Shown here: piece by piece, positions 23,158 through 57,135 of the stretch
How positions within the stretch are numbered: position 1 is the first letter of the stretch
How the letters are laid out: every line of letters starts with the position of its first letter
Origin: Scatophagus argus
Taxonomy: Eukaryota > Chordata > Actinopteri > Scatophagidae
DNA: 64,000 bases
Reading direction: 5' to 3'
NCBI RefSeq assembly: GCF_020382885.2
Contig: NC_058508.1
Coordinates: 10,205,917 to 10,269,916 of the forward strand
Position numbers and translations under genes: made by a program
Notes under the pieces: generated by a model
Seen by the model: the letters and a program-made list of their open reading frames with translations, nothing else
Database searches by the model: none
What the model was told of the DNA's origin: nothing

Positions 23158-23372
23158 TTCATTCATTTCCAACACACAAAGACAGACAACCACACACACA
23201 CACCAATGGGCAAAGAGTAGCCAATTAACCTAATGTGCATGTTTTTGGTATTGTGGGAGGAAGCCGGAGTACCCAGAGAAAACCTACGCAGGCACAGGGA
23301 AAACATGCAAACTCCACATAGAAGAGCCCAGACCGGGATTCAAACCTGGAACCCTCTTGCTATGAGGGGACA
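23158..23372 (-). mobile_element. SINE fragment (same family as 41,251)
   Basis: Reverse-oriented copy carrying GGGATTCAAACCTGGAACCC and the CACAGGGAAAACATGCAAAC tract. Shorter pieces lie at about 21,990-22,070 and 52,505-52,612. Confidence 0.65.
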
Positions 23373-23814
23373 TGTGTGCACATCTGTGATAAGTATGCAT
23401 TTGATACTAAAATTAATTTGTAACTGTTTATGATATTTGTTTAATGTTTTGTTCAGGACTTATCACTTCTCTTGACAAGTTTCAAAGCTACTTGTTTTTC
23501 TTAGAAATCTTTAAAAAGATATTTAAAAATATTTTCAGTTGAAAATACTAATTTTTGTTGCTGTTTTATGAGCAATGATGCCGCTGTTTTATCCATTAGA
23601 CTTTTTATTTGCTACTGATGACAGATTATGACGAATGAAGATTGAAAAACAATAATGAAACAATTAACACACATAAAAAATAATTATGATGCAAAATTCC
23701 CTTTTACTTATAAGCTTAATTACCTTTTCTTTATCAGAATTGAAGTTTTGTTTTATTTTTACCAGCTGCTGACAGTACAGGTCCCCTGAGTGCTCAGTGC
23801 AGGAAACAGTGTTG

Positions 23815-23884
23815 GGTTTTTGTATTAGGGTTCATCATGGTGATGGCTATGGTGGCCACTGAGATACAGACCCATACAAAAACC
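23815..23884 (+). other. IGHD: D-tau 1 segment with two 12-bp-spacer RSSs
   Basis: 5' RSS: nonamer GGTTTTTGT 23815-23823, 12-bp spacer, heptamer CATGGTG 23836-23842. D core ATGGCTATGGTGGC, 23843-23856. 3' RSS: heptamer CACTGAG 23857-23863, 12-bp spacer, nonamer ACAAAAACC 23876-23884. Both nonamers are perfect and both spacers are 12, as required to join to the 23-bp RSSs of V and J. Both heptamers are off consensus, but they are identical in the copy at 53,121. Confidence 0.88.
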
Positions 23885-24208
23885 TTAGATTAAAAATTTA
23901 CAATCTCCAATCGTGTGATGTTAAATAAAAGAACAGGATGAAATATCTCTCCCCAGAAGATGAGGTAACTACTGTGTTTATCATTTTTAAATAGAAGATT
24001 AGTCGTTAAAAGCTGATTAATTAGAAGTTTAAAGTCACAGTTTGTGCACAAATGTAAAATTTATCTTCCAGAAAATCTTAACTTTTAGAAGTGATTAAGA
24101 ATCAACGTGAAACATGTTCACATGGTGTCACCAGGGGATAATACTGACCAGGATTTCTGTGTATGGAAAACATTTTACGAGGTTTTAAAACATTTTTCTG
24201 TTGTGGCA

Positions 24209-24295
24209 GGTTTTTGTTCAAGCAGTGAGTGGAGATGCAACACTGTGATTACTTCGACTACTGGGGTAAAGGGACTGCAGTCACCGTATCTTCAG
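24209..24295 (+). other. IGHJ: J-tau 1 segment with 23-bp RSS
   Basis: Nonamer GGTTTTTGT 24209-24217, 23-bp spacer, heptamer CACTGTG 24241-24247, J coding 24248-24295 (YFDYWGKGTAVTVSS), then splice donor GTAAGT. It is the only J before C-tau 1 and lies about 1.3 kb upstream of CH1. Confidence 0.95.
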
Positions 24296-25602
24296 GTAAG
24301 TCACATTTAAACTGAATATCTTTTAGCTACCAGTTTATTTTACATTTTAAAAATATGCTTCTTTTGGTACGGTAGTTAAACTAATGATTTTAAGTTTGCA
24401 CTGATGCTGACAAGGTACAAAATACAGCAGACAGATGTTTTTAATGCGGTTGCTTCTTGGAAAGTGTTTGAAAGAGGTTCTTTGGTTTTATTATTAAATT
24501 CAGGAGGTGATTTGTTTTACCTTAAATTTTATTCAGCTGGACTGTAATTGCTGCTGACGAAAGTCTGCATTTACATTAAGATTATTATTCAATACATTTT
24601 TTATGACTATGGATATTAATTATACATGTTGCCATACCTGCCTTTCATATAAGAAGAGCAGTACAGAAGAGCAGAGGAATACATATATATTTTGTGTATT
24701 TCACTGAAGGATCAGCATCTGCTTCAACTTAGCGAACTGAACACTGAGGATAGACGTAATTAAGTAGATAAATTATATGACATGTATTATATAAAGTGTA
24801 TAGTATTGTTTGAAGTACCACAGGGATTAATGGCTTTAAAAGGGACATGTGTGTTTCAGTTACATTTTAGAGGAGCAATTTTACATCAAGTAATCTGTGA
24901 TTATTCTCAACAGCTTTTGTGAATTCTTTTAGATTTACTGTAAAATAAAAATGAACATAAAATGAATAAATATAATACAATACATAAACAGAATAATAAC
25001 TAAATTATATTTTAAAATGATCAAAACCCTTAATACTAAGATGGATTTTAAACATTATTATATTAGTTCACATATTCATGGTTATATCTTATATAATATT
25101 CTTTGTATTAATACTGAACACATATTAATTTATTTGAATTTAAATTTAAAAGATTTTAATTTAATTTTAAAAAGTGGACTCTGGTCTCTTTGGTTCAGTG
25201 AAACTCAACTGGAGATGAAATCACTGTTGGTTTTCTTTCTTCTACCCCAACAGAACTTTCTAGCAGGCAAGACAAACAGATTAATAAGTATATTTCAAGT
25301 GTAGTATTAAATACATTTATTATTGTGAAGTAAATCAGACGTACCTTGAATGTGATTTTGATAAACATGCTGTGGCTGCTATGAAAGAATGAAGGTAATT
25401 TTATGTTTCACCAGCAGCAGCATTTTAACATGAACAATGTTGCTGGTACTTTTAATATTATTGCTACAATGATTACATGATCATAAAGACAAGAAATATG
25501 AATTGAACATGGGTTAATATTGTAATTAGATTTAGGACATGCTATTGATCGTTTCTGTTCTTTAATATGGCTGTATTGGCTTTTATGTGTCCTCTTTCAC
25601 AG
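24296..25602. other. J-C tau intron
   Basis: AT-rich intron, nearly identical to 53,592-54,892 in the second tau cassette. No exon or switch-like tandem repeat seen. Confidence 0.7.
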
Positions 25603-25896
25603 CACCACCTGCACCACCAACTGTGTTCCCTCTGATTCTGTGCTCCCCTGGAACCGGAGATAAAGTCACTGTTGGTTGTCTCGCACAAGATTTCTTCCCA
25701 AAGCAACTCACCTTCAGGTGGACCGATGAGAGTGGGACCAGTTTGACTCCTTTACAATATCCTCAAGCTGTGAAAAACAGCAAATATACAGAAGTCAGTT
25801 TGGTCGAAGTATCAAAATCTGCCTGGGATTCAAGGAAGTCTTTCAATTGTTCTGTGACTCACAATACAAGGGACTACAGTGTGAAACTGCGAAACA
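25603..25896 (+). CDS. IGHT: C-tau 1 CH1 exon (IgT/IgZ heavy chain)
   Basis: First constant domain of the teleost IgT (also called IgZ) heavy chain. Exon bounded by TTTCACAG and GTATGT, phase 1 at both ends. APPAPPTVFPLILCSPGTGD; the Cys in ILC is at the place used to bond light chain; domain disulfide Cys in VGCLAQDF and FNCSVTH; Trp in FRWTDE. It differs only slightly from the copy at 54,893. The gene is placed after its own D and J, the standard tau arrangement. IgT rather than mu, because mu exons with their own J cluster lie downstream and the membrane tail differs. Confidence 0.93.
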
Positions 25897-26095
25897 GTAT
25901 GTGATTATTATTTTTTTTAACTTACTGTGATGGCTCTCTTACGAGTTCAGATGCATTGCATTGTTCATCTTGTTTTGATTTTAAAATGTTCATCTGTCTC
26001 GTATTACATCTTCTTTTCTTAAAATTCTAAAATGAATAATTACAGACTGATTAAAACAGGCACATCTATTTCTGCTCCTTCTTCCTCATGGACAG

Positions 26096-26380
26096 GGACT
26101 CCATCACCTCCAAAGTTAACTCTGGTTTCAGTAACAAGAGAAGACGCTCAGACCTTGGTGTGCACAATCGAGGATTTTTTTCCAGAAGAGCTGTCAGTCA
26201 AATGGAAAAAGAATACAGCTGATGTAACTGGCTTTACTGACTACGCTCCCAAATTAGATGGAGGGGCATATTCAGCTGTCAGTGTCCTGACGGTCAAGAC
26301 GACAGACTGGGACAGTCAAGCTGTTTACACATGTGAGGTGACGCACAAACAAAACCGATATTCAAAGAAGACCTCCAAAG
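26096..26380 (+). CDS. IGHT: C-tau 1 CH2 exon
   Basis: Second domain: TPSPPKLTLVSVTREDAQ, Cys in LVCTIEDF, Trp in VKWKKN, Cys in YTCEVTH. The likely acceptor is CATGGACAG at 26,087-26,095 behind a pyrimidine tract; donor GTACAG; phase 1. This exon has no counterpart in C-tau 2. Confidence 0.88.
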
Positions 26381-26500
26381 GTACAGAGCTACGACATTTA
26401 TTACATGAGACTGTACTGTAACTCTGAGCCAACTGTTGTGTTGACGTAATTGTACACAGATATCAAGTAAAGGTTTTCTCTGCTGCTCTCGTTTTTGTAG

Positions 26501-26815
26501 CCATGGTTACAATGACACTGAAGCAACCCAGTCCCAAAGAGATTTTCAGCAACAACCAGGCAAAGCTGGAGTGTATCATTACAGGACAAGTCAGCAACAT
26601 TTTGCAGCAAATTAATTTCAGTTGGCAAACTGATGGACAAAGTGACGCACACAACATTTCGACTTCTCCAGTAACGTCCAAAGGTGGTCAGCACAGTAGA
26701 AGTAGCACGAAGTCCTTCTCTCGCGATCAGTGGAACAAAGTCAACAAAGTTCGCTGTTCTGCCAGTAGTGATGATGTGACTCTAATTTCTGAAGAGCTGA
26801 CTGTCCACAAAGGAG
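26501..26815 (+). CDS. IGHT: C-tau 1 CH3 exon
   Basis: Third domain: MTLKQPSPKEIFSNNQ, Cys in LECIITGQV, Trp in FSWQTDG, Cys in VRCSASSDD. Acceptor TTTTTGTAG, donor GTATGT, phase 1. Missing from C-tau 2. Confidence 0.88.
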
Positions 26816-26924
26816 GTATGTTACTGGGTGATGGAGACTGATTGGCAGAAAAGTAATCTGTAAGTCTGGGCAAAACATAAAGCTTATATATAAAGTTCCC
26901 TGGTAAACAATTTGTCTCTTTCAG

Positions 26925-27281
26925 ATGGAAGTAACGCAGAAGTGACAGTCCATGTCCTCTCAGAAGAGGATATCAACCAACCAAGCAAAAATGAGGTCAC
27001 TCTGGTGTGTCTGGTCTCCAGCCCTGTGCAGCAGGATTTCTACATTGCCTGGACAGAAGATAGGGGACAAAAATTCAGGCATCTATATGGATGGCATCAC
27101 CTCCCCCCCACAGACGACCCAACAAGGCTACTTAGTTACAAGTGTTTACACCACCACCAAGGCAAAATGGAATAACAGGCATACGTTTGGGTGCAACGTG
27201 TGGCCTGCTGGCAGCAACAACTCCGTGAAACTACGAGAAGTCTCTAAGGCCCAGGGTAACTCAATTGAATGTGACAAATAG
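26925..27281 (+). pseudogene. IGHT: C-tau 1 CH4 exon and secreted tail, one-base frameshift
   Basis: Last domain. NAEVTVHVLSEEDINQ and Cys in LVCLVSS, then Trp in AWTED. Between about 27,062 and 27,080 there is one base more than in the intact copy at 55,329 (19 against 18 bases in the aligned stretch), so the original frame stops at 27,173-27,175. The rest of the domain (GYLVTSVYTTTK, FGCNVWPAGS) and the secreted tail (NSIECDK, stop 27,279-27,281) are read in the next frame. Membrane splice donor at 27,255/27,256 (CAGG|GTAAC). PolyA signal AATAAA 27,499-27,504. Either a real defect or a base error in this assembly. Confidence 0.85.
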
Positions 27282-27712
27282 TAGATTCAGCTTTAAATGT
27301 GGTATTTTGTGCAAATGTGTTGTTCTGTCTCTGTGTGTATTATCTGCCATGGGAATCTGTGTACTTTGTCATGTCATCAGTCTTTGTGATTGTAAAAATG
27401 AGAGTCAACAGGTCAGTTTGGTTCTTGTTTGCCGTCACACTGTGTTTCACTCTGTCTTTGTCATGTCTAACATCTTGAGAAGTGTGCTGACTGTTTCAAA
27501 TAAATGTTGCATGGAGAATCTCTTGTTATATGTTCATGAATGACGTCAATATTTTAAAACAAACAGAAAAGTAAGCGTGCTGTATACGGTCTACTGCATT
27601 GTTTAACTGTAGAAAGCTCCACATACGATATGTGATCAATGAGTGAATAATGCTCAATTACAGTTTATGACCAATGCTTAGCTGTCAATTTAAAAATCTT
27701 AAAAATCTTTGT

Positions 27713-27714
<2 letters not shown>

Positions 27715-27744
<30 letters not shown>
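27715..27744. repeat. (AC)n microsatellite
   Basis: About 30 bp; shorter at the same place in C-tau 2 (56,120-56,132). Confidence 0.95.
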
Positions 27745-27746
<2 letters not shown>

Positions 27747-27779
27747 TTTATCTAACCATATATACCTTCCTCTTCTTAG

Positions 27780-27934
27780 ATTTTACTCCAGAGTCGAAAC
27801 TGAATTTTGCTCTGAGCTGCAAAGATGATTTTAATGAAGAGGATGAGCTCAGCAGTCTGTGGTCCACAGCCTCCTCCTTCATTTTCCTCTTCATATCTTC
27901 TCTCCTCTATAGCATGATATTCAGCGTAGTCAAG
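27780..27934 (+). CDS. IGHT: C-tau 1 membrane exon TM1
   Basis: Acidic extracellular spacer with one Cys (FALSCKDDFNEEDELSS) followed by the transmembrane helix (TASSFIFLFISSLLYSMIFS) ending VVK. Acceptor CTTCTTAG, donor GTAAAT. It joins to the internal donor of CH4 in phase. Confidence 0.92.
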
Positions 27935-28749
27935 GTAAATATGCAGGCCTTTTCTGCATTTCTGCTATACTGATGACCAAAGATTGTAGAGGACATAATA
28001 AAGAATTCATTTTCTTCCCAGACAGGAATGTGCAGGAGAAAACTGCTAAGAGATATTAATGTGAAAGTTAGTGATTTTCTGTCTGTGCTTGTGATTGACC
28101 ACAAAGTTTTTCAGGTTTGTCCAGTTTGTGCAGGGAAATTGAGATGTCTGTGATGCAGGTTAAGGCTTCCACTTACCTCATTAAATTGTACAAAAAAGAC
28201 AAAAAAAAAAAATAAAATCAGATAAATGACGGGTTGTGAATTGCATCAGCTTAATTCACTAGCTCTGTTCTGAATTTGAGTTCATTGGCATGACCAGCTG
28301 GAACGTGTGTGACAGATCAACTTTTAGCAGCAACAGACTGAAGACCTTCTCCAACAATAGAAAATGTGCTGTTTTGTGATGCTCCACAGCACGTACATGA
28401 ATGTTAACAACTGAATGAATGAGTCACACCACAGATACCATCTTTAAGAAACAAATTATGGGTAGTTACAGTTTCCTGGCATTTGAAAATGAAGCTTTAC
28501 AAGCAACTTAAAAAAGGTTATAAAATTGGGCCAATCATCTGGTCCAACAGGTAATATAATAACTATAGAACATGTGTGGCCTGCAGCAAATCTGCTTTAT
28601 TGAAGACAGAGATTATTTTGGTGTCAGTTCTCTCGCTGGGTGAAACACAAGAGTGAAATAATCAATCAAACCTTTGCACTGTTTAACAATGTGGATGACA
28701 AGTTCATTTAAAAAAGTATAATTTTTTGATTCTTTGATTTTTATTTCAG

Positions 28750-28764
28750 ATGAAGAGACGGTAA
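28750..28764 (+). CDS. IGHT: C-tau 1 membrane exon TM2
   Basis: ATG AAG AGA CGG TAA after TTATTTCAG, so the cytoplasmic tail after TM1 is VVK-MKRR. Identical in C-tau 2 (57,121-57,135). Confidence 0.85.
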   Translation: MKRR

Positions 28765-29969
28765 AGGATGAGATGGATGCACAGAAGAGACGACTAAAGG
28801 GTCTTCATTTATTTTTTGTCTTTGATATTGTTCTCATTTACTAAGTGGATCATCATCTACAATAATTAACTAGCTGATTGAAAATGTCTCTGTAACCTGT
28901 ATTTCTTAAATGTTTATCTAAATAAATGTGTGTATTGTTGCTACATAACAATGACAGAAGTTGTTGATTACTTTGCTTTTCATTGATAAACAAATAATAA
29001 TTGTACCACAGTGGACATACAGATAGAAATATATCCTGTATGCAGGTTTTCATTTTGCAGTTCGACTATAAATCTTTGCTCTTCTTTGGTCATTTTGGCC
29101 ATTTGTGTTTGCTTCCTCATTAATTCAATGGATACAATAAATATGATTTGTGCGGCCACATGGAAATTAAAGGTCATATAAACATGAGTATTGGTGTGAT
29201 TCTAATAAATATCAAAAGCTTTTGAGGATTTTCTTGCATTTGAGTCACAGGATGGGGATCTAAGAACATCAAAAATAACAGCATAAACATCTGCTATCAG
29301 TTAACCTCTCAACGTTTTTCAGTTTCCTGATGTTTCTAAACATATCATGTTTAGAAAGACACTTCCCCCCTCACTCTGCACATCTGGGACCACACCTGCA
29401 GCCTTGACACTTTGTAGAAACTGTAAGGGCTACAAATAAACTTCTTCGAAGAAAAACGGTTCATCTTTCACTGCACATATTTGCATTTCAGTCCGCATTC
29501 AGGCATGAAGTGGCTCCCCAGTGAAGCAGGAAAAATGAACAGAGACATCAAATACAGAGAATCCAGAAAACAATATTGGTGTCATACAACTCATGTTCAA
29601 ATGAGTTTGGAGTCTAGCTCCCGCCTCATCATTCACCACAGCTTACGTGAGATACTAAGGAGCGATGACAAAATATTTTGAACCCCCCTGCCGGAGTCTA
29701 CAGGTGGATGATGGAGTGGTGGTGGGGCTGAAAGAAGGCTGAGTTTGACTTTGTAACACGCCTTTTAGCTATGTGTGGGGAGTATCACTCACTGCACTGC
29801 TTGTGTGACTGAGATAATATAGGACTGGGACTGTACCCAGAACTTGTAGACGACAGTTAAAATGTGATTCCTGGTGTTAAAACTCCTCAACATCCTCACA
29901 AGATGATTTAAAGCATCCTGAGCAGATTATGGAGGTAATAGTAATTGAGTTACTTTGATGCTTTGGGGT
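28765..29969. other. 3' flank of C-tau 1, no gene seen
   Basis: Non-coding DNA matched by 57,136-58,040. About 29,515-29,810 is absent from the copy. Confidence 0.5.
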
Positions 29970-36282: not shown

Positions 36283-36591
36283 CCACTCCACAACCACCAA
36301 CCGCGTTTCCTCTGATGCAATGTGATGCTGCAACAGCAGACACGATCACTGTTGGCTGTCTTGCCACCGGCTTCACACCCTCCTCACTGACCTATGCATG
36401 GAGGAAAAATGGAGTAGCCTTGACAGACTTCATTCAGTACCCTCCAGTACAGAAAAACAACCTGTATACAGGAGTCAGTCAAATCCGAGTGAGGAGACAG
36501 GACTGGGACAGTATAAAGACTTTACAATGTGCCGTGACACATCCAGCAGGAAATGCTGAGGTTGGTGTGTACGGAGGCCCACATACTCCTG
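36283..36591 (+). CDS. IGHM: C-mu 1 exon (IgM heavy chain)
   Basis: First constant domain of IgM, the main B-cell receptor and secreted antibody. ATPQPPTAFPLMQC (light-chain Cys), VGCLATGFTPSSLTYAW, LQCAVTHPAGNAE. Acceptor CTTTCTTAG, donor GTAAGT, phase 1 at both ends. The GCLATGFTPSSLTYAW tract is typical of teleost mu CH1. In teleosts this exon is also normally used at the start of IgD. Confidence 0.95.
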
Positions 36592-37394: not shown

Positions 37395-37724
37395 AGGAAG
37401 ACGTCATTAAGCCAAGCCTTAAAGTGTTGGCCTCCTCTGATGAGGAAAACGAAGCCTCCTTCTCCTGCTTTGCCAAAGATTTTTCACCAAACACTTATGA
37501 GTTCAAATGGCTGAAAAATGACAAGGACATCGCCAACAAAAAATATGAGCTCACAACACCTGCTAAAGAAACAAAGTATGAGAATGGAACTGTAGTGTAC
37601 AGTGCAGCAAGCCTTCTCGTAGTGCCGTCCAGTGAGTGGACTTCAGGAACAACATTTACATGTCAGTTTAAGGGGGAAGGTGAAACTGTCACGAATTCAT
37701 CTGTGACTTCAAGTGACCATTCAC
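37395..37724 (+). CDS. IGHM: C-mu 2 exon
   Basis: KPSLKVLASSDEENEASF, Cys in FSCFAKDFSPN, Trp in FKWLKN, Cys in FTCQFKG. N-glycosylation sites NGT and NSS. Acceptor TTTTTTAG, donor GTGAGT, phase 1. Paralog of the exon at 39,430. Confidence 0.94.
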
Positions 37725-37824: not shown

Positions 37825-38142
37825 CTGACGAATGTAAACAAACTGATGTGGACATAACGATCTTAGGACCAAGAATGGAGGATATCTTTAAGGATAGCCT
37901 TGGACAGATAGTGTGTCAGGTCAATGTATACAAGCCATCTCTCAGTAAGATTTGGTGGGAGAACGAGTTTGGAAAGGAATTGGTTAGTTCCCCACAGGAC
38001 GCCATTAAAATAACTACAGGGGTATTCAACCTTTCACTTGATATCACATATGATGAATGGAGCCAGGGGGTAAAGCGCTACTGCTTTGTTGAACACACAG
38101 AGTGGATGGAGCCAATAAAGAAACTCTATGAAAGGGATGCTG
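37825..38142 (+). CDS. IGHM: C-mu 3 exon
   Basis: ECKQTDVDITILGPRMED; hinge-like Cys near the start for a possible inter-chain bond, domain Cys in IVCQVNV and RYCFVEH, Trp in IWWEN. SLDITYDEWSQG is characteristic of teleost mu CH3. In teleosts the membrane form usually splices from here to TM1; phase 1 allows it. Donor GTAAGA. Confidence 0.95.
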
Positions 38143-38284: not shown

Positions 38285-38676
38285 GAGAACAGACTCTGCG
38301 TCCTTCAGTGTTTATGCTGCCTCCAGTAGAGCATACTAAAAAAGAAATGGTGACCCTGACTTGCTATGTGAAAGACTTTTTCCCTCAGGATGTTCTTGTG
38401 ACTTGGCTTGTTGATGATGAGGAAGCAGGCCCAAATTACCACTTCCATACCACAAATCCTGTAGGACACCATGGATCCTATTCTGCTTATGGCCAGTTAT
38501 CACTCAGCCTTGACCAGTGGCAAAATGATGACGTGGTGTATAGCTGTGTAGTTCACCATGAGTCAGTGGCTAACAGAACTAAAGCTATTGTCAGGTCCGT
38601 CGGGTACAAAACATTTGAAAAAATCAACCTGGTCAACCTCAACATGAACGTCCCTGAATCGTGCAAGGCCCAGTAG
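38285..38676 (+). CDS. IGHM: C-mu 4 exon and secreted tail
   Basis: LRPSVFMLPPVEHTKKE, Cys in LTCYVKDF and YSCVVHH, Trp in VTWLVDD, then the secreted tailpiece NLVNLNMNVPESCKAQ with the near-terminal Cys used for polymer formation. Stop 38,674-38,676; polyA signal AATAAA 38,778-38,783. Confidence 0.96.
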
Positions 38677-39429
38677 ATGTTGTTCTGTGTCGCTGTGTCT
38701 TCTGCTGTTTGTTGTTTGATGTTTGTTGCTTGTGATATGACATTGTGTTTGTCTTTTTAATGCAGATTCAAAATCAAAATAAAAAAAAGCACTTTGCAAC
38801 TCTGTTGATGTACGTCGCATGCAGTTCATGTCTTTATTCAACCAAAGTTTTGAGCTATGTGTTCATTGTAAGTCTACTGTCACAGTGCTGTCCTAATACA
38901 ACACAAATGATGTGTAGCATGTTTGAGTTTTAAAGCCCAGTGACATTATTAGCAACTTTGCACATATTGTTAGAATAACTACATCCCCAGCACCCAAACT
39001 TCAAAAAACAAAGTAATTTGTTTTTATTTGTACATAGTACATTTACTCTGTTTGTGTGACTTGTCTTTGTAAATGTGTGTTTCCTCTACTGGGTCTTGCA
39101 CCCCCAACACAAGACACATGACTGTTTCTGGTCTAACTCCAGTTCTGTGGTCTCTCAGTCAAATGATGAATATATGCTGATTCACAAGCCAAGTCACATA
39201 TTCCATATCAACAATGGAGTCTTTCAGTAGCAATTCATGGTCATTATAGGAGAAATGTATTATTTATCAACCTATTAGCCTTATGATACACCCATAACAA
39301 TGTGATAAGTAACAAGACAAAACATATACCTTACAGTTTTTTTAAATGTATTAATTTATTTTATTCCTTAATTGGATTGATTAACTGGCAAACTGGTTGA
39401 TTTTCAAATATTTTGTGTTTGTATTTCAG
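38677..39429. other. 3' UTR of secreted mu and following intron
   Basis: Contains the polyA signal of the secreted form. No exon seen before 39,430. Confidence 0.6.
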
Positions 39430-39762
39430 TGACTTTTGTGTCACCAACTCTTGAAGTATTGGCCTCCTGGAATGAGAAAAATAAGGCCTCCTTCTCCTGC
39501 TTTACCAAAGATTTTTCACCAAACTGTTTTGCGATCAAGTGGCTGAAAAATGGCAAGGACATTACCAACAAAATATATGAGATTGAAACTTTCAAGAAAA
39601 GAGAGAATGAGACAGGAACTGTACTGTACAGTGCAGCAAGTTTTCTGACGGTGCACTCGGATGAGTGGAGTCCCGGCACTACGTTTACATGTCAGTTTGA
39701 GGGAAAAGATCAAAAAAATTATACAACCCTGAAATCATCTGTGACCTACAAAGAGAGTAAAA
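39430..39762 (+). CDS. Extra C-mu 2-like exon between C-mu 4 and TM1
   Basis: An intact Ig constant exon where no CH exon is expected in a mu gene. SPTLEVLASWNEKNKASF, Cys in FSCFTKDFSPN, Trp in IKWLKN, YSAASFLTV, Cys in FTCQFEG: clearly a paralog of C-mu 2 (by eye about 60% identical), with one extra Cys (PNCF). N-glycosylation sites NET and NYT. Acceptor GTTTGTATTTCAG; two possible donors, both phase 1 (exon end 39,756 or 39,762). It could splice in frame after C-mu 1, 2 or 3 and on to TM1, or be a silent relic. No stop and no damage. Confidence 0.88.
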
Positions 39763-40069
39763 GTAAATGAGCACATTGCTTTTTCTTGAAACGAACCAAT
39801 CATCTTTTCCTGTCTCTCTGTCTGTCTGTCTCTCTCCTAATACATAAATTAATTTTTGGGACAAATATGTCCTCCAAGTTTGAAACAATAGCTCATGAGT
39901 ATAATGAGCCAATTCCTTTGATGACCACTCTGTTAAAGTAAATATAGTCAGTAAATACAGACCGCTCCATTAAAGTAAATATAGTAAATCAATCAGTGTG
40001 TCATATGTAGAGGATTTTGCATGCTATAGATGTTGTATCAAATCATTTCCAACTGTACACTATATCCAG

Positions 40070-40206
40070 AGCTCCTGACTGAACCTAACTATAAGTGGGA
40101 CAGTACCATGGAGGCAGAAGAAGATAACATGGGAGACACAGCTATCACCTTCATCCTTCTCTTCCTCATCACTCTGCTGTTCACCATTGGAACCACTGCT
40201 TTCAAG
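40070..40206 (+). CDS. IGHM: C-mu membrane exon TM1
   Basis: Acidic spacer ([14 protein letters not shown]) followed by the transmembrane segment [20 protein letters not shown] and AFK. Acceptor TATATCCAG, donor GTAAAG after a complete codon (phase 0). Confidence 0.93.
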
Positions 40207-40948
40207 GTAAAGTTGTGCACAGATTTGCATTTAATTCAACCAGACAAGTGAGTAAACACTTTTATGTATTCAAACTACAAAGATGCAAGAGCAAAAAGGC
40301 ACTCACTCCTCCTAACCTGAGGTGTAAAATGACAACAGGTTCAATATAGCATAGGGACAATTATTAAAAATTAATGTTTGAACATAATTTGTTACTCTTT
40401 TGAGGATCTTATTAACCACACTGGAACAAAAACTATCTTTATCCATTATGCCACTAGGTTTTTACATGTTTTTTTAGAGCTTATACTTCTAAGTTATTGC
40501 AACAGAAGCTTAGGTATCAGTGATGATCAACAGAATGTTTGTGCAGTTTCATACTTTGAGACATGATAAACATACAGTTAAAAATTACCTCTGTAAAGCA
40601 TAGTGATTGTTAAATGTTAAGCTTTTTGAACACAGCAATGATTCTTTTAAATTTTAGAGCTGTTGTCTCTATTGTATGTTCAGTAACATCCCTTTTTTGA
40701 AGCTAATTAAGATAAATTATTTTTACATTGGTACAGCAGACTAAATTGGCAGAAAGCAATTGTCACAGCTTCATGTGTGTATTATGATATGTTATTATAC
40801 AGCAATGTTGTAACTGCAATGTGCATTCATTGGTCAAATAATATTTTTTGCAATATAACCACACATGTGAGTGGTGAGAAATAGCATTTGATCATTTTGC
40901 TGCAGTATTACTAATTCTTATATTTTTATTCTTTTTCTGTCTTTTCAG

Positions 40949-40957
40949 ATTAAATGA
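40949..40957 (+). CDS. IGHM: C-mu membrane exon TM2
   Basis: ATT AAA TGA after GTCTTTTCAG, giving the short tail FK-IK, close to the K-V-K tail of membrane IgM in other vertebrates. PolyA signal AATAAA at 41,102-41,107. Confidence 0.85.
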   Translation: MK

Positions 40958-41250
40958 AACAAGACGAACTGTCTGTAAAAAGTATTTGAAATAAGTATTT
41001 TCACATTTTTCTTAAAAATTCATTGCATCATGTAAGTAATCCCAATTGTCCTTTTTTGCCTTTTTTTCAATTTAATTACAAGCTCTTTGTATGTTTTTGA
41101 AAATAAATGTTTCAGTGAAGATAATCTTCAAACGTTTTCCTTCTGTGATTTTGAAATGTTCATACAGCATACATTGTCAAAATTTAAGGACATAATATTC
41201 ATGATTACTTTTCTATATTTTTTGTTTTCCATTATGTATATTGTGTAAAG

Positions 41251-41608
41251 GGGTGGTGCAGTGGTTAGCACTGTCTCCTCAAAGCAAGAGGGTTCCAGGT
41301 TTGAATCCCGGTCTGGGCCCTTCTATGTGGAGTTTGTTCTCCCTGTGCCTGCGTGGGGTTTCTCCGGGTGCTCCGGCTTCCTCCCACAATACCAAAAACA
41401 CATGCACATTAACTGGCTACTCTACATTGTCCATAAGTGTGTGTGTGGTTGTCTGTCTTTGGGTGTCAACCCTGCAATTGACTGACGACCAGTCCAGGGT
41501 GAACCCCACCTCTTGCCCATAATCAGCTGGGATAGGCTCCAGCCAACCCCCCGCCTCCCCCCACCCCCACTCCCACCCTGACAGATAAGTGGTATAGAAA
41601 ATGGATGG
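41251..41608 (+). mobile_element. tRNA-like SINE, full copy
   Basis: Head with pol III box-like motifs (GTGGTTAGCACTG and GTTTGAATCCCGG) and tail ending GGTATAGAAAATGG. A perfect 17-bp target duplication ATGTATATTGTGTAAAG flanks it (41,234-41,250 and 41,609-41,625), a hallmark of retroposition. Confidence 0.85.
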
Positions 41609-41625
41609 ATGTATATTGTGTAAAG

Positions 41626-42640
41626 TGATATTATGTTCAGGACCTCCACAGCACCTGGAATCAACAGCCCATGTTCAACTCAATATGTAAATTCAGAGAT
41701 TTTACAGTCGGGTAGTCCTTGAGTCTATTATAAACCGAGAACTAAAACTAAAACCTTCAAGTCATGAGAAACCATGTAAAGTCCATGTGCAAAACATATG
41801 TAAACTGATATGAAACATTTAAATGTGCACTCTGTTTCTCTTACTGGCATGACCGCATCTCACACCTGCAGTTTGTGATGCTCCGTTGCTCTTTGCATTG
41901 TTTCAGTTCTGCATCTTCGTACTTTTTCTGGACCTTGGTGTTACTCAGTGTTTGCGCTTGCTGCTAGCTCTGATCACTCTGCCCTGTCATGCTTCAACAT
42001 CTGTGCAAAAGACCTTCAAGCCCAATCTTCACCTGATTCCAACAGATACTGTAAAAGCACAACTTTGCCATCTAGCCTAAATATAAAACATTACACTTAG
42101 AACTGAGTCAGCACAGTTGGTTACCTGACCAAACTTTGAAGGTATGAAGAGATGAAATCAGTTCATATCTTAAACATGTTCACATTCAAGGTTTATATTG
42201 ATGCAAGTAAAAACAGGTAACATGTATAGCTACTATCTCACCCGATTATGACAATCGTTGATATATCAAGAATGTTTTAAGATTAACAAATTCATATTGT
42301 AACAAACATTTCTAGCTAAAAGCATTTTTTTCTACAGTTAATGTAAACAGACGCCCATACAGTCATGTTGAGATTCCCAGCTTCAAGACAGTAATGATGG
42401 TAGCATCTGAGGTGAAGGTGGATTGCCTGCATTATGTGTATCCTTTGTATGTGATGCCAAGGTGACTGGCTGATGAATGTGAAACTTCCATCCAGTGACA
42501 AATTGAACAAGGCCTCAAACACAACTCATTTAGTAAGCACTGTGATGGCTACCTTGAGTCAGTGGAAACAACTGAAATTAATAAAATGTGAGGCTAAACA
42601 ATGATTCCTCTCGTTGAGATGATCATGAATGCTTCAAATA
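41626..42640. other. Region 3' of mu; no C-delta exon recognised
   Basis: Non-coding by eye: no open frame with the paired Cys and Trp pattern of an Ig domain, and no second membrane exon. In most teleosts C-delta would begin about here. Confidence 0.6.
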
Positions 42641-42648
42641 AGTGGATT

Positions 42649-42999
42649 ATGCAAAATAAAAATCTGGTGAATTTTGAAAGTTAATTACCTAAGATAATAC
42701 ATTCTCTAATGATGCAAATTTCCACTGCAAAGTGAATAAAGGCTTCTGACTTTGAGATTCCACGATGAATGTAATGAACAAATCTTCTAAAATCAAAATA
42801 CATTGGCAAATTTTGATGAGAGGAGTGGCTTTGATGAAGCCACATTTGATAAAGCCACTCCTCCAGAACACAAGAAGACGCAGCAGGAGGACACATAGAA
42901 GAGTTTGGTCTCAAAAGCTGGTTTCCGGTTTCTGGTTTCTGTTTGTAGTCCATTTACAATAGTATTTGCAAATCATGTTTGAGCTGGCTGTGTTTGCAT
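42649..42999. promoter_or_regulatory. Octamer cluster 3' of mu, candidate enhancer
   Basis: Within 350 bp: ATGCAAAA 42,649-42,656, perfect ATGCAAAT 42,712-42,719, ATTTGCAAAT 42,964-42,973 and GTTTGCAT 42,992-42,999. In fish the main IgH enhancer lies 3' of the mu exons and depends on octamers, so place and motif fit. The region also holds a 13-bp inverted repeat (42,820-42,832 with 42,851-42,863). Function is inferred only. Confidence 0.4.
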
Positions 43000-45085
43000 G
43001 CATTGACAGAGTCATGTCATGACATGACAGAGTCAGAGACATCATCTCTCGATTCCAACTCCACTCTCACATCTCAAGTTGCTAATCAAACTGTAAGCAA
43101 TGACCACCTCGTGGAAGAAGTAGTCTTGACCCAGATATCTTTATTCTGGATATTTGCTAGCCACAACAGAAGCCCTGAAACATTTGCTGCTTCTTCTAGA
43201 GGCTAAATCGTCATCAAATGATAGCCAGTGGGTACCAAGATTGAGCTGTTGGTAGTACTCACAGAGGTCAAGCTAGAATTTCAGTACTGGAGTTGTATTT
43301 TAGCTGCATTTTTGTTCCTTCTGCATTTATATAGAATTTTAATAAAAGAAAAAGAAAAGGAAGAAAACAACTCAACATATTTTACACTATTTATACACTA
43401 ACTTTAAAACCACAGCAGAAATGTCATCAAGTTTGTTATTTTGAAGTAGAGCTTTTAGTATCTGGACACAGTATTTAATGAAAAAAGATTTATTTACTTG
43501 TTACTTGCCAAATTTAGACAGCCACAGCTGGTTAGCTCAGTGCATCAGATAAATATGGAAACATTTAAGTATCAGATCAGACTTGACTGACTAAGATTTC
43601 AACATGAATGTAATGAATAAATAAAAATAATATCACTGGACTCATTCCTCCATTCAGATTATACAGATTCAGATATACAAAATGTATTGAACAAGGCTGT
43701 CGTGATTTGCTTAATTGATTAGAATAAAATATTTATTTAATTTATATTTATTCTTCCAGGATATGCTCAATACCATAGTATACCATGTCACAATGCTCAT
43801 GCTCTTGTTACCCAGATTGTCCACAAGAGTGAGACAAAGCTCCACATTTGACAGTGGTGATTTGCTCCCTCTTCTGAGAAACACCAGTTGAGCAGGAATT
43901 TGAAGATGCTGACAGGTCTGAACTGGATTCAGTAAATGGTATGATACAGAGGTACATTCACATGAAAACAGAACTTCACCTTTCTATGCATACACACACA
44001 TACACATACACAGAGTCACTGTAAATGTGTGCAGACTGTTTTCAAGTTAGAGCTGCCTGTCTGTGTCTGTATTTGTATACCTTGTGGGTTTTAAGGAACC
44101 CACATCTGGGAGGGATGACACATAGCACATCCAGGCTTACTATTGGATACCTCTGGAGGGATCTGGCACTGTGTTTGCCCTGATTGGCTGTGGAGCGCAT
44201 GGCAGCCAGCCCAAATCTGTGACGCTGTTGCTGGGATGGAGCTGCAGCATGCTCCTGCCAGTCTTAAGTGCCAAGGGACCGGTAACAGGGAAGCAGGGCA
44301 CCATGCCCAGCAGGCTGCTTGAGAGCGTCTCACTGTCTAACACCTCCATACACTCCCGTATTCTTATGCTGAGCTCCGCCCTTCTTCTGGGTCTTTGCTT
44401 AACCCTTTGAGTGTGTTAAAACAGGGATAAGTAGCAACCCAACATCCTCACACATGTAAGATGACTATACTCCCTTTGCAACTACTGCTGGGGCACCACT
44501 GAGCAAACTACTCAACCACAAACTGCCCAGCGGCCAGCTGCAGAAGTTTGTCGTTGCACTCAGCAGCTCCAAATTTTAGAAATGTTGCACTGAATGTGCT
44601 GAAAAATCCATACATGCTCAGTCAGTTTTACCTGAGAAAGAAAGATTTATCATTATTTAAAGGAGATTAATCTTATGTTAGAGCTATCAACAAAGAAGCT
44701 GTCTGTTGAGCATTCAGATCTTTCTATAACATTTCCTTTTAGACCAAATAAGTTTTGCTTTTACAAAAAAGAAAGGAAAAAAAATCAAAATAGAGGGCAG
44801 TAAATAGATGGTCATGGTCATTCTAATGATCATTAAAGTGTTACCTCTTTTTTCACTGTCATGATCAGCATCATCTTCATTGCATGCACACACACAAGCT
44901 CATACATAGCTACTGGATGCCTTAAAGTTCCTTTAATGTGGGGATCAATAAAGTATCTATCTATCTATTTATCTATAAATTCAAGAGTTGTTTTTTTTTA
45001 ATATTTTGAAAAACATGATCTGACCTACTCTAAAGACATATGTACAAACACTTGCTGAAATACACTTAAATTAGTTTACAAAATT
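43000..45085. other. Intergenic, no gene recognised
   Basis: Non-coding with short unrelated open frames. At 44,945-44,985 GGGGATCAATAAAGTATCTA plus (ATCT)n looks like a LINE 3' tail. About 44,090-44,410 is less AT-rich and may be an old repeat; I cannot name it. Confidence 0.45.
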
Positions 45086-45099
45086 AAAATAAAGAGGCA

Positions 45100-45457
45100 G
45101 GGCGGTGCAGTGGTGTAGTGGTTAGCACTGTCGCCTCATAGCAAGAGGGTTCCAGGTTCGAATCCCGGTCTGGGCCCTTCTATGTGGAGTTTGTGGAGTT
45201 TGTTCTCCCTGTGCCTGCGTGGGTTTTCTCCGGGTACTCCAGCTTCCTCCCACAATACCAAAAACATGCACATTAGGTTAATTGGCTACTCTAAATTCCC
45301 CCTAGGTGAGAGTGTGTGGTTGTCTGTCTTTGTGTGTTGGCCCTGCGATTGACTGGCGACCAGTCCAGGGTGAACCCTGCCTCTCGCCCAGTCAGCTGAG
45401 ATAGCTGAGATAGCTCCCCCGCGACCCTGACGGATAAGCGGTATAGAAAATGGATGG
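45100..45457 (+). mobile_element. tRNA-like SINE, full copy
   Basis: Head GGCGGTGCAGTGGTGTAGTG and GTTAGCACTGTCGCC, then the B-box-like GGTTCGAATCCCGG; tail ends GGTATAGAAAATGGATGG. A 14-bp target duplication AAAATAAAGAGGCA lies at 45,086-45,099 and 45,458-45,471. Reference copy for the fragments elsewhere in this window. Confidence 0.87.
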
Positions 45458-45769
45458 AAAATAAAGAGGCATTCAATAGCAGAAACCTCATCACCCCACC
45501 TCCGGCTGAAGCATCTTGATGCATCTTTGTCCTTTTTTCTGTTACAATTGCTTCAAAAGAACAGATGAAGTGATGTAGGCTTTAATCAAGACACGTCAAG
45601 TTTTAAAGCACCATAGTTACAAGAAACAACCAAAATAATCACAATACGCCATTATGAGAATAATTAGTGAGATACACAATGACACTGATGTTCTTTTTAT
45701 GCTGAAGACTGATGATTTTATAGAGTGGGATGTCAATGCTTATTCATCTATTGGCTGTTGCTGCTTACC

Positions 45770-46020
45770 CTTAACAGGGTCACAGGGGGCCTGGAGCCTA
45801 TCTCAGTTGACCCTGGGGGAGAAAAGGGGGACACCCTGGAAAAGGATTGCCATCTCACAGGGGGGGACGTAGAGACAAACACCTATTTACACTCACATTC
45901 AGCTATTTTCAGTCACCAGTTAACCTAACCTATATGTCTTTGCACTGTGGGGTGAAGCCAGATGGGCATCCAGGCAGACATGAAGAGAACATGCAAACTC
46001 TCTACAAAAACACCTTCTAG
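45770..46020 (-). mobile_element. Old, diverged SINE copy
   Basis: Reverse-oriented pieces of the same family (GGGCCTGGAGCCTATCTCAG, then AGAACATGCAAACTCT), heavily diverged. Confidence 0.5.
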
Positions 46021-46227
46021 CATATTCTAATATGTGTTTAAGTGACTTGCACTTTGTGGTAAGAGCATCACTTACATGGCAAAAGTGATTCAAAGCTTGA
46101 ACAAATGTCACACACACTATTTTCATCGTCTGTATATATAGGGCTATACAATGTATTGAAATACTTAAACCATGATCATGATTACAATCATAAATAAGGA
46201 CATATGTTTTGTGCTACTCCGCCACAC

Positions 46228-46235
46228 ATGCAAAT
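46228..46235 (+). promoter_or_regulatory. Isolated perfect octamer
   Basis: ATGCAAAT with no V leader or TATA box behind it. May be chance or part of a regulatory region. Confidence 0.25.
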
Positions 46236-46689
46236 AGACTTTTTCAGTCAGTAAACCACGACACAAAACTACGATGTGGTGTGTGTGTTTTATTTATCAA
46301 CACTTCCAGCAGATGGCAACATTCTCCTAATCATATTGACCCAGAACTTACTGTCACCAGTCGGTCTTTCTAACGTTTTACATGTTAACAGAAAAGCATA
46401 AATAAGAGCTATCAAAGGCCTGATTCCATTCAGCTGCTTTGGATTTAAGGGCTCTGGCATTATAGACTCTGATACACTGTTACACTGTCACAGCTTCCAG
46501 AGCTATCATTCTTTTTCTTAGAAATACTTTTATTTTTAGTCAAACTGTCTGCTGTGAAATAGACCAGTAAACTACTGTGAAGCTAGCTTTAAGTTGGATA
46601 TTCAACAGTAATATGACCCAGTGACCCCAAATGAATACCAAAAACTTAAACTACTACTACTAATATAATACATCTGAAACAGTGATGTA

Positions 46690-47447
46690 TGTCCAGGAAA
46701 CATCTCAGAGCATCACTCAGCAGCAGTCCAAATGAGAGGTGAACAGGGTGTTCTCTGTCTTTTCAATGTTGACTAACGGTAAAATAACATTTCATTATCG
46801 GTTTGTTTGATTTTTATATTTCTCACATTCACCTTCATTGAAATCACAAGGACATCGATGGAGACCTTCCTGTTGGTTTAGTAGGGACATGGGAACTTGA
46901 AGTTTATTCATTCAGGACTAAGAAGGACTATCTTTCTAAACTGTAATGTATGTAACTCCAATCTGTGTCTACCTATGCAACTAAAGAAAACAGAATGAGC
47001 TTCATTTAGTGAAAGGTATAACACTGAAACAAAAGCTTAATTCTAACATTTGTTAAAAGATTATCTCAAGGATAACCACTGTTATTACTGGAAGGGGGGG
47101 TTAACCAAACGTGTAATTGAACTTGTGAAAAAGAAAAAAACAACTGAGTTGTGATTTCATTTTAAAATATAATACATCTGAAACAGTTAACTCCATGCAG
47201 TTTATTATTCTTATGCTGACAGAATGATCATTATGTAAGGCAGATGATTAGAATGAATATTATGTTATACCTGGCATTGTTTTAAATTCCACTTTAATAG
47301 CAATACCAAAAATAACATAACATTATATACATTCTAATGTATGGTATATAAATAACATGTAACTGATATTTTAGGGTTAATTTTCTTTTTAAAACCCCAA
47401 AAGTATCCAGTGATCACACTTGTATTACCAAAATATGGTAGTAGTAG
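46690..47447. other. Start of block B: duplicate of 350-1,729 without the LTR
   Basis: Runs parallel to the start of the window and shows the uninterrupted site for the LTR at 1003-1593. No gene in it. Confidence 0.7.
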
Positions 47448-52504: not shown

Positions 52505-52612
52505 AGTACCCGGAGAAAACCCACGCAGGCACAGGGAGAACATGCAAACTCCACATAGAAGAACCCAGACTGGGATTCGAACCTGGAACCCTCTTGCTAT
52601 GAGGGGACATGT
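52505..52612 (-). mobile_element. SINE fragment
   Basis: Piece of the family at 45,100, reverse orientation (GGGATTCGAACCTGGAACCC), also present at 23,270-23,370 in block A. Confidence 0.65.
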
Positions 52613-53092
52613 GTGCACATCTGTGATAAGTATGCATCTGATACTAAAATTTACAAAAATTTACATTTCTGCTCTGAGTAAGAGCACAAAAAATTAATTT
52701 GTAACTGTTTATGATATTTGTTTAATGTTTTGTTCAGGACTCATCACTTCTCTTGAAGTTTCAAAGCATCTTGTTTTTCTTAGAAATCTTTAAAAAGATA
52801 TTTAAAATATTTTCCATTAAAAATGCTATTTTTTGTTGTTGTTTTATAAACAATGATGCCGCTGTTTTATCCATTAGACTTTTTATTTGCTACTCATGAC
52901 AGATTATGACGAATGAAGATTAAATAACAATAATGAAACAATAAACACAAGCAAAAAATAATTATGATGCAAAATCCCCTTTTACTTATACACTTAAATA
53001 CTTTCTCTTTATCAGAATTGAAGTTTTGTTTTATTTTTACCAGCTGCTGACAGCACAGGTCCCCTGAGTGCTCAGTGCAGGAAACAGTGTTG

Positions 53093-53174
53093 GGTTTTTG
53101 TATTAGGGTTCATCATGGTGATGGTTGGTATCTGGGTATACTTGGCCACTGAGATACAGACCCATACAAAAACC
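53093..53174 (+). other. IGHD: D-tau 2 segment with two 12-bp-spacer RSSs
   Basis: GGTTTTTGT 53093-53101, 12-bp spacer, CATGGTG 53114-53120; D core 53121-53146, 26 nt (starts ATGGTTGGTATCTGG); CACTGAG 53147-53153, 12-bp spacer, ACAAAAACC 53166-53174. RSSs are identical to D-tau 1; the core is 12 nt longer. Confidence 0.88.
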
Positions 53175-53493
53175 TTAGATTAAAAATTTTACAATCTCCA
53201 ATCATGTGATGTTAAATAAAAGAACAGGATGAAATATCTCTCCCCAGAAGATGAGGTAACTACTGTGTTTATCATTTTAAAAATTAGTTGTTAAAAGCTG
53301 ATTAATTAGATGTTTAAAGCCACAGTTTGTGCACAAATGTAAATTTTATCTTCCAGAAAATCTTAACTTTTAGAAGTGATTAAGAATCAACATAAAACAT
53401 GTTCACGTGGTGTCACCAGGGGATAATACTGACCAGGATTTCTGTGTATGGAAAACATTTTATGTGATTTTAAGACATTTTTCTGTTGTGGCA

Positions 53494-53591
53494 GGTTTTT
53501 GTTCAAGCAGTGAGTGGAGATGCAACACTGTGATACTACTACAGCTACTTCGACTACTGGGGTAAAGGGACTGAAGTCACCGTATCTTCAG
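53494..53591 (+). other. IGHJ: J-tau 2 segment with 23-bp RSS
   Basis: GGTTTTTGT 53494-53502, 23-bp spacer, CACTGTG 53526-53532, J 53533-53591 (YYYSYFDYWGKGTEVTVSS), donor GTAAGT. Eleven nucleotides longer at its 5' end than J-tau 1. Confidence 0.95.
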
Positions 53592-54892
53592 GTAAGTCAC
53601 ATTTAAACTGAATATCTTTTAGCTACCAGTTTATTTTACATTTTAAAAATATGCTTCTTTTGGTACGGTAGTTAAACTAATGATTTTAAGTTTGCACTGA
53701 TGCTGACAAGGTACAAAATACAGCAGACAGATGTTTTTAATGCAGTTGCTTCTTGGAAAGTGTTTGAAAGAGGTTCTTTGGTTTTATTATCAAATTCAGG
53801 AGTTGATTTGTTTTACCTTAAATTTTATTCAGCTGGACTGTAATTGCTGCTGATGAAAGTCTGCATTTTCATGAACATTATTATTCAATACATTTTTTAT
53901 GACTGTGGATATTAATTATACATGTTGCCATACCTGCCTTTCATATAAGAAGAGCAGTACAGAAGAGCAGAGGAATACATATATATTTTGTGTATTTCAC
54001 TGAAGGATCAGCATCTGCTTCAACTGAACAACTGAACACTGAGAATAGACGTAAATAAGTAGATAAATTATATGACATGTATTATATAAAGTGTATAGTA
54101 TTGTTTGAACTACCACAGGGATTAATGGCTTTAAAAGGGACATGTGTGTTTCAGTTACATTTTAGAGGAGCAATTTTACATCAAGTAATCTGTGATTATT
54201 CTCAACAGCTTTTGTGAATTCTTTTAGATTTACTGTTAAATAAAAATGAACATAAAATGAATAAATATAATGCAATACATAAACAGAATAATAACTAAAT
54301 TATATTTTAAAATGATCAAAACCCTTAATACTAAGATGGATTTTAAACATTATTATATTAGTTCACATATTCATGGTTATATCTTATATAATATTCTTTG
54401 TATTAATACTGAACACATATTAATTTATTTGAATTTAAATTTAAAAGATTTTAATTTAATTTTAAAAAGTGGACTCTGGTCTCTTTGGTTCAGTGAAACT
54501 GGAGATGAAATCACTGTTAGTTTTCTTTCTTCTACCCCAACAGAACTTTCTAGAAGGCAAGACAAACAGATTACTAAGTATATTTCAAGTGTAGTATTAA
54601 ATACATTTATTATTGTTAAATAAATCAGAAGTACCTTGAATGTGATTTTGATAAACATGCTGTGGCTGCTATGAAAGAATGAAGGTAATTTTATGTTTCA
54701 CCAGCAGCAGCATTTTAACATGAACAATGTTGCTGGTACTGTTAATATTATTGTTACAATGATTACATGATCATAAAGACAAGAAATATGAATTGAACAT
54801 GGGTTAATTTTGTAATTAGATTTAGGACATGCTATTGATCGTTTGTGTTCTTTAATTTGGCTGTATTGGCTTTTATGTGTCCTCTTTCACAG

Positions 54893-55186
54893 CACCACCT
54901 GCACCACCAACTGTGTTCCCTCTGATTCTGTGCTCCCCTGGAACCGGAGATAAAGTCACTGTTGGTTGTCTCGCACAAGATTTCTTCCCAAAGCAACTCA
55001 CCTTCAGTTGGACTAATGAGATTGGGACCAGTTTGACTCCTTTACAATATCCTCAAGCTGTGAAAAACAACAAATATACAGAAGTCAGTTTGGTCGAAGT
55101 ACCAAAATCTGCCTGGGATTCAAGGAAGTCTTTCACTTGTTCTGTGACTCACAATACAAGTAACCACAGTGTGAAACTGCAAAAGA
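54893..55186 (+). CDS. IGHT: C-tau 2 CH1 exon
   Basis: Nearly the same as C-tau 1 CH1: APPAPPTVFPLILCSPGTGD, VGCLAQDF, FTCSVTH. It has N-glycosylation sites NTS and NHS near the end that CH1 of copy 1 lacks. Acceptor TTTCACAG, donor GTATGT, phase 1. Confidence 0.94.
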
Positions 55187-55328
55187 GTATGTGACTTTTT
55201 GTAACTTACTGTGATGGCTCTCTTACAAGTTAAGATGCATCGCTTTGTTCATCTTGTTTTGATTCATCTGTTTGGTATTACGTCTTCTTTTCTTTCAGCT
55301 CCCCTGGAAAACAGTTTGTCTCCTTCAG

Positions 55329-55684
55329 ATAAAAGTGGGCCAGAAGTGACAATTCATGTCCTCCCAGAAGAGGATATCAAACAACAAAGCAAAAATGAGG
55401 TCACTCTGGTGTGTCTGGTCTACAGCCCTGTGCAACAGGATTTCACAATATCCTGGACAGAAGATAGTGGACGAAAGAATGGCGTCTATACAGATGGCAT
55501 CACCTTCCCCCCACAGAAGTCCAAACAAGGCTACTTAGTTACAAGTGTTTACACCACCACCAAGGAAAAATGGGATAACGGGTATAAGTTTGGGTGCAAC
55601 GTGTGGCCTGCTGGCAGCAACAGCTCCATAAAACTACGACAAGTGTCTAACGCCCAGGGTAACTCAATTGAATGTGACAAATAG
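55329..55684 (+). CDS. IGHT: C-tau 2 last CH exon and secreted tail, directly after CH1
   Basis: Equivalent to CH4 of C-tau 1 but with the frame intact: PEVTIHVLPEEDIKQQSK, Cys in LVCLVYS, Trp in ISWTED, FGCNVWPAGS, tail NSIECDK, stop 55,682-55,684. Two in-frame acceptors exist: TCCTTCAG (start 55,329, the place homologous to copy 1) and TTCTTTCAG (start 55,299, adding ten residues). Membrane donor after 55,658. CH2 and CH3 are missing: this gene encodes a two-domain IgT. PolyA signal AATAAA at about 55,902. Confidence 0.93.
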
Positions 55685-56168
55685 TAGATTCAGCTTTAAA
55701 TGTGGTATTTTGTGCAAATGTGTTGTTCTGTCTCTGTGTGTATTATCTGCCTTGGGAATCTGTGTACTTTGTCATGTCATCAGTCTTTGTGATTGTAAAA
55801 ATGAGAGTCAACAGGTCAGTTTGGTTCTTGTTTGCCGTCACACTGTGTTTCACTCTGTCTTTGTCATGTCTAACATCTTGAGAAGTGGGCTGACTGTTTC
55901 AAATAAATGTTGCATGGAGAATCTCTTGTTATATGTTCATGAATGACGTCAATATTTTAAAACAAACAGAAAAGTAAGCGTGCTGCATACGGTCTACTGC
56001 ATTGTTTAACTGTAGAAAGCTCCACATACGATATGTGATCAATGAGTGAATAATGCTCAATTACCGTTTATGACCAATGCTTAGCTGTCAATTTAAAAAT
56101 CTTAAAAGTCTTTGTTAACACACACACACACACCTTTTATCTAACCATATATACCTTCCTCTTCTTAG

Positions 56169-57120: not shown

Positions 57121-57135
57121 ATGAAGAGACGGTAA
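57121..57135 (+). CDS. IGHT: C-tau 2 membrane exon TM2
   Basis: Encodes MKRR and stop after TTATTTCAG, as in copy 1. Confidence 0.85.
   Translation: MKRR

Follow-up and report, generated by a model that had tools for sequence, protein, structure and literature searches.

Teleost IgM is known in several membrane forms. Surface IgM of teleosts usually omits C-mu 4 and varies in length, the functional meaning of which is called unknown in a review (PMC3570791). In the passages on membrane forms of two reports (PMC7287348, PMC3141427), the surface IgM of medaka and Nothobranchius furzeri is given as C-mu 1-C-mu 2-TM1, and corresponding passages on zebrafish (PMC5192425, PMC3570791) put an additional C-mu 1-TM1 form on record. 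The first-pass annotation of the DNA studied here had stated that membrane mu of teleosts is normally spliced from C-mu 3 to TM1; judged by these passages, this stands as the usual state, but not as the only one, as C-mu 2-TM1 and C-mu 1-TM1 are also recorded. A membrane IgM with four C-mu domains is described for Clarias macrocephalus in the account of its IgM (PMC9247300), and notothenioids are reported to carry two additional exons of 39 bases, RA and RB, which follow C-mu 2 and precede TM1 (Coscia et al. 2010, as summarised in PMC3570791). For medaka, the description of zone 4 of the IGH locus (PMC3141427) places C-mu 2 and C-mu 4 between C-delta exons, in addition to a duplicated C-mu 4 with TM; the same description includes C-mu exons that are predicted to be functional and lack transcripts, with the authors' caution that the EST libraries were perhaps too shallow.

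We analysed a 64-kb stretch of Scatophagus argus DNA, referred to below as the window, which, judging by its own sequence, covers a portion of the heavy-chain antibody locus of a teleost and carries an IgM gene on the + strand (Table 1). The best match of C-mu 3 and C-mu 4 is the solved teleost IgM chain 8ghz (E 1.6e-59). This otherwise complete gene contains an extra C-mu 2-like CH exon, which we label C2'; it is a complete exon for a C1-set Ig domain and a paralogue of C-mu 2. The exon is located 3' of C-mu 4 and of the AATAAA that follows it, and 5' of TM1. Since the likely secreted-form poly(A) signal lies upstream of it, C2' is possible solely in transcripts that run past 38,778; judging from this position, membrane forms alone could contain it, except where it serves as the end of a transcript itself. 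In the titles and abstract openings listed by literature searches, we found no account of an exon resembling C-mu 2 that is placed between C-mu 4 and TM1, a weak negative because terms containing the Greek letter mu are unsearchable. Prokaryotic contigs (queried with C-mu 4) and viral contigs (queried with C-mu 2) yielded no relatives, which is uninformative about fish.

Table 1. Features of the IgM gene around C2' (positions in the window)
Feature	Position	Strand	Remark
C-mu 1 exon	36283..36591	+	start read off the sequence
C-mu 2 exon	37395..37724	+	paralogue of C2'
C-mu 3 exon	37825..38142	+	usual teleost donor to TM1
C-mu 4 exon	38285..38676	+	with secretory tail and stop
AATAAA	38778..38783	+	likely secreted-form poly(A) signal
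C2'	39430..39762	+	C-mu 2-like CH exon, in phase 1 at both ends; alternative shorter end 39,756
TM1 exon	40070..40206	+	connecting peptide and membrane helix
TM2 exon, coding part	40949..40957	+	Ile-Lys-stop

The frame of C2' is open from end to end, with zero stops and zero frameshifts, and its length is within 3 bases of that of C-mu 2. The exon starts at the acceptor tgtatttcag/TGACT and is in phase 1 at both edges, which fits C-mu 1, C-mu 2, C-mu 3 and TM1. Its translation matches the Pfam C1-set family with 47.6 bits (E 2e-12, cut-off 21), compared to 44.0 bits for C-mu 2, and contains the Cys pair of the domain (Cys23 and Cys87) together with its Trp (Trp37). A third Cys, which C-mu 2 does not have, is found at residue 32, just ahead of the C strand as placed via the Trp, and the two N-glycosylation sequons of C2' are offset by a few residues from the two of C-mu 2. 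The residue is identical in 62 of the 107 aligned codons, and 73.2% of bases agree; within the window, tblastn joins the two exons with an E of 5e-34 and 60% local identity, whereas the other CH exons show at most 28% identity to C2' among the window matches listed. A C-tau origin of C2' was considered and ruled out by the same window comparison, C-mu 2 being far closer. The first-pass annotation had described a complete, stop-free CH exon with an acceptor, both Cys and the Trp, paralogous to the C-mu 2 exon at 37,395, and this description was confirmed. The positions that it gave for the C-mu donors (36,591, 37,724 and 38,142) and for the start of TM1 (40,070) proved correct, and so did its proposal that a membrane-only form would be frame-compatible, the donors of C-mu 1-3 being in phase 1 and TM1 accepting phase 1.

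Splice sites were scored using an approximate weight matrix, and donors were ranked against the 3,718 GTs scanned on the + strand of the window. On this approximate scale, the C2' donor at 39,762 (AAA/GTAAAT) has 4.0 bits, with 11% of scanned GTs equal or better, and the donor at 39,756 (AGA/GTAAAA) has 1.1 bits, with 32% equal or better. The same approximate matrix assigns 10.6, 8.2, 9.1 and 7.4 bits to the reference donors of C-mu 1, C-mu 2, C-mu 3 and TM1, respectively. Both C2' donors lack G at -1 and at +5. The donor at 39,762 aligns without gaps with that of C-mu 2, position +5 being A in C2' and G in C-mu 2, and its nine-base sequence occurs in two further copies at most 215 bases downstream. 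Two usable phase-1 donors had been proposed for C2'; both are present and preserve the frame, but the word "usable" is too strong for sites of 4.0 and 1.1 bits compared to 8.2-10.6 bits for the C-mu exons. As far as predicted strength can tell, the weak donors are the main result against use of C2'. The acceptor has 5.6 bits on the approximate matrix, compared to 7.3 for C-mu 2 and 3.4 for TM1, and 9% of scanned AGs are equal or better; it outscores the acceptor of TM1 and precedes it. The intron between C2' and TM1 has 307 bases, and a weak donor ahead of such a short intron would be compatible with inclusion.

If C2' did terminate a transcript, readthrough of its donor would lead to the in-frame stop at 39,768-39,770, and polyadenylation downstream would yield a secreted IgM that lacks the customary tail piece. 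The stop is reached only two residues beyond the C2' donor, and an ATTAAA is present at 39,969, both in favour of an alternative last exon. It should be noted, however, that C-mu 2 likewise runs into a stop shortly past its donor, so that the stop is nothing special, and that AATAAA is absent from 38,784 to TM1; we consider this use of C2' very improbable.

C2' differs from C-mu 2 by a synonymous distance of 0.55 and a nonsynonymous distance of 0.28. For comparison, the window contains a block duplication carrying both IgT-like genes (23268-29515 and 52505-57896), whose copies show 91-98% identity depending on the BLAST piece, a divergence of 0.03 in each of the two stretches compared, and approximately 0.12 gap openings per substitution. 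Given 0.55 versus 0.03, C2' and C-mu 2 separated long before the IgT-like block was duplicated. A fresh tandem duplication was rejected, the 300 bases 5' of C2' and 5' of C-mu 2 having an alignment score of 24, compared to a 95% point of 27 in shuffles. The comparison of the 3' flanks was marginal (a score of 26 versus 95% points of 24 and 21, with shuffle maxima of 31 and 35). A tract of 39 bases with one mismatch is shared by C-mu 2 (37454-37492) and C2' (39486-39524); shuffling of bases gave a p value of 0.0016 (the minimum over six thresholds) and shuffling of codons one of 0.008 (the minimum over five), and the tract may be a patch of gene conversion.

Duplicated antibody loci are difficult assembly targets, and C2' might, for this reason, be a misplaced fragment of another C-mu copy. 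The closest match in the window is C-mu 2, at 60%, the window contains zero N, and the 5' flank of C2' differs from that of C-mu 2, all of which argue against an assembly artefact; among the explanations considered here, it is the least probable.

The pairwise dN/dS between C2' and C-mu 2 is 0.51 (bootstrap 0.30-0.86); because it is obtained from a single sequence pair, this ratio is blind to which of the lineages is constrained, and would on its own be compatible with constraint on C-mu 2 and neutrality of C2'. Relative rates were estimated with C-mu 1, C-mu 3, C-mu 4 and C-tau 2 as outgroups, which are 15-27% identical to C2'. An assignment was possible at 16 of the differing sites, a sample of low power, with 7 derived residues in C2' and 9 in C-mu 2; by single outgroup, the ratios of derived residues (C2' to C-mu 2) were 4:2, 3:5, 2:5 and 3:3. 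From these counts, the amino-acid change in C2' looks no faster than that in C-mu 2.

A profile built from the four other CH domains scores C2' with 39.5 bits and C-mu 2 with 33.7 bits. We simulated the decay of this score under neutrality (substitutions only, stops read as X, 500 runs per distance). Starting from C-mu 2, none of the 500 runs reached 39.5 bits at any of the distances 0.05, 0.1, 0.15, 0.28 and 0.4; starting from C2', at least 39.5 bits were retained in 48 of 500 runs at 0.05 and in 13 of 500 at 0.1, and in none of 500 at 0.15, 0.28 or 0.4. Survival of the frame was simulated with indel-to-substitution ratios of 0.2, 0.12 and 0.06, the middle of which matches the local rate in the IgT-like block (17 gap openings per approximately 138 substitutions). 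For all three ratios, less than 5% of neutral runs preserved an uninterrupted frame together with the Trp and the Cys pair beyond approximately 0.05-0.1 substitutions per site. If half of the synonymous distance is assumed to have accumulated on the C2' branch, no more than roughly one sixth to one third of its history can have passed without constraint.

These results bear on the possibility that C2' is an old copy that was never used and whose frame has survived by chance or through conversion by C-mu 2. Such a relic could well have weak donors, and the 39-base tract hints at conversion, which would be able to repair parts of a dead copy. However, the neutral simulations are contrary to this explanation, the divergence of C2' is higher outside the tract and the frame is still whole there, and its substitutions do not look faster than those of C-mu 2; we regard a neutral relic as improbable. 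No disabling change and no relaxed constraint were found in the coding part of C2', weak though its donor is; the pairwise ratio, the outgroup comparison and the neutral simulations agree on constraint. Together with a dS of 0.55 and the simulated decay, this upholds the earlier statement that C2' is not a fresh relic. To judge by its sequence, C2' served as a functional domain during most of its existence, whether here or in another C-mu gene, two histories that would leave the same sequence; past constraint may have been exerted elsewhere, before the exon arrived at its present site. Intactness alone does not show use, because medaka, according to the description of its locus, has C-mu exons that are predicted to be functional and have no transcripts (PMC3141427).

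The surroundings of the IgM gene were also analysed. We call the two other constant genes in the window IgT-like, a name that we infer from their place before C-mu and from their CH domains. The first copy (25566-27278) has four domains; compared with the second copy, its last CH exon is shifted out of frame by one base near 27,077. The second copy (54856-56305) has only the first and last CH exons, the last one open, and a TM-like frame with a weak TM match (E 0.05); approximately 0.87 kb of the first copy, including the two middle CH exons, is gone from it. A VH at 61048-61338 is inverted and shares 96.9% protein identity with the VH at 48.5 kb.

Teleosts usually keep IgD downstream of the mu TM exons. 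Here, C-delta was undetected in the stretch of approximately 6 kb that separates TM2 from the next VH (40958-47300) by a five-domain C-mu-type profile, applied to the 1,685 window reading frames of at least 25 residues, a search that a strongly diverged exon could escape. The profile gave one weak candidate, at 42,455 (E 0.6, without a Pfam match), and Pfam detected no C-delta in 10 selected reading frames at 41.0-46.2 kb. Since the two last C-tau exons of the first IgT-like copy were caught weakly by the same profile, a strongly diverged C-delta exon could be missed. C-delta may be lost, too diverged, or located elsewhere in the locus. The locus is thereby of the medaka type, with duplicated blocks, an inverted VH, a two-domain IgT-like gene beside a four-domain one, and C-delta undetected.

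In a locus of this kind, C2' might be a stray exon, namely the C-mu 2 of another, diverged C-mu gene, which was recently inserted by unequal recombination and is unspliced here, its intactness being retained from service in the source gene. We consider this quite possible, and the main competitor of the explanation preferred below. The locus has block duplications and an inverted VH, the second IgT-like copy is without the two middle CH exons of the first, and the stretch between TM2 and the next VH may be rearranged, as C-delta is undetected there; the weak donors of C2' point in the same direction, as do the C-mu 2 and C-mu 4 exons inside the delta gene and the functional-looking exons without transcripts described for medaka (PMC3141427). 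What argues against a stray exon is the lack of accompanying sequence: C-mu 3, C-mu 4 and TM remnants were undetected beside C2' (best E about 0.03, at noise level), and a search of four stretches within 38,677-47,300, outside C2' and TM1, for remnants of C-mu, C-tau and TM exons gave nothing above noise. In addition, with block copies at 91-98% identity and a dS of 0.55 for C2', a stray origin would require a second C-mu gene of unusual age; neither such a gene nor a near-identical source exon is present within the 64-kb window.

We lean slightly, and tentatively, toward another explanation, ranked ahead of the stray exon, in which C2' would be a cassette exon of membrane IgM that is optional and included at a low or regulated level. 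The exon itself, its frame, its place, its age relative to the IgT-like block and its constraint are established; the splicing of C2', the resulting protein and its role in B cells are inferred as follows. An ancestral C-mu 2 exon would have been duplicated long ago, and the copy retained as a functional Ig domain in the membrane-only portion of the gene. A transcript that bypasses the secreted-form poly(A) site could then be spliced from the donor of C-mu 3 (or C-mu 1) to C2' and from C2' to TM1. The long product, C-mu 1-2-3-C2'-TM, would add to surface IgM a fourth CH domain, adjoining the membrane, and the short product would be C-mu 1-C2'-TM. The C-mu 3-C2'-TM1 path, the C-mu 1-C2'-TM1 path and skipping of C2' are all in phase 1, and each of them would preserve the frame. 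The weak donor would make inclusion low or regulated, with C-mu 3 to TM1 remaining the default. A stricter version, in which C2' is spliced into the B-cell receptor alone, as a private, long-selected domain that produces a four-domain or short receptor with an added Cys, appears somewhat doubtful.

The variety of membrane IgM forms in teleosts accommodates a membrane-only domain. If C2' is such a domain, surface and secreted IgM would be distinguished by a dedicated domain, which would permit a direct question about the role of the membrane-proximal domain in the B-cell receptor; a displaced exon in a duplicating antibody locus would then have been co-opted, rather than being debris.

Among known systems, the one nearest to C2' is the C-mu 2 domain exon of teleost IgM (IGHM), which is alike in C1-set family, phase, near-equal length and 62 of 107 residues; C2' differs in its location after C-mu 4, weak donor, extra Cys and shifted sequons. 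The medaka IGH locus, as described in PMC3141427, has in common with the present one that C-mu exons are displaced in a duplicating locus. According to that description, the medaka strays are found between C-delta exons or as C-mu 4 with TM, in zones termed recently duplicated, whereas C2' is single, old, and within the mu gene ahead of TM1. The membrane forms of medaka, Nothobranchius furzeri and zebrafish resemble the proposed use of C2' in that a C-mu 2 domain or C-mu 1 is spliced to TM1; unlike C2', these forms use the normal exons, and the passages describing them make no mention of an extra exon. Four domains in surface IgM are common to Clarias macrocephalus and the proposed long form, although Clarias, in the account cited (PMC9247300), uses C-mu 4 and not an extra exon. 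The notothenioid exons RA and RB, as summarised in PMC3570791, are, like C2', extra exons for a membrane form adjoining TM1; they have 39 bases each and are supported by transcripts, whereas C2', known here from genomic sequence, encodes a whole domain.
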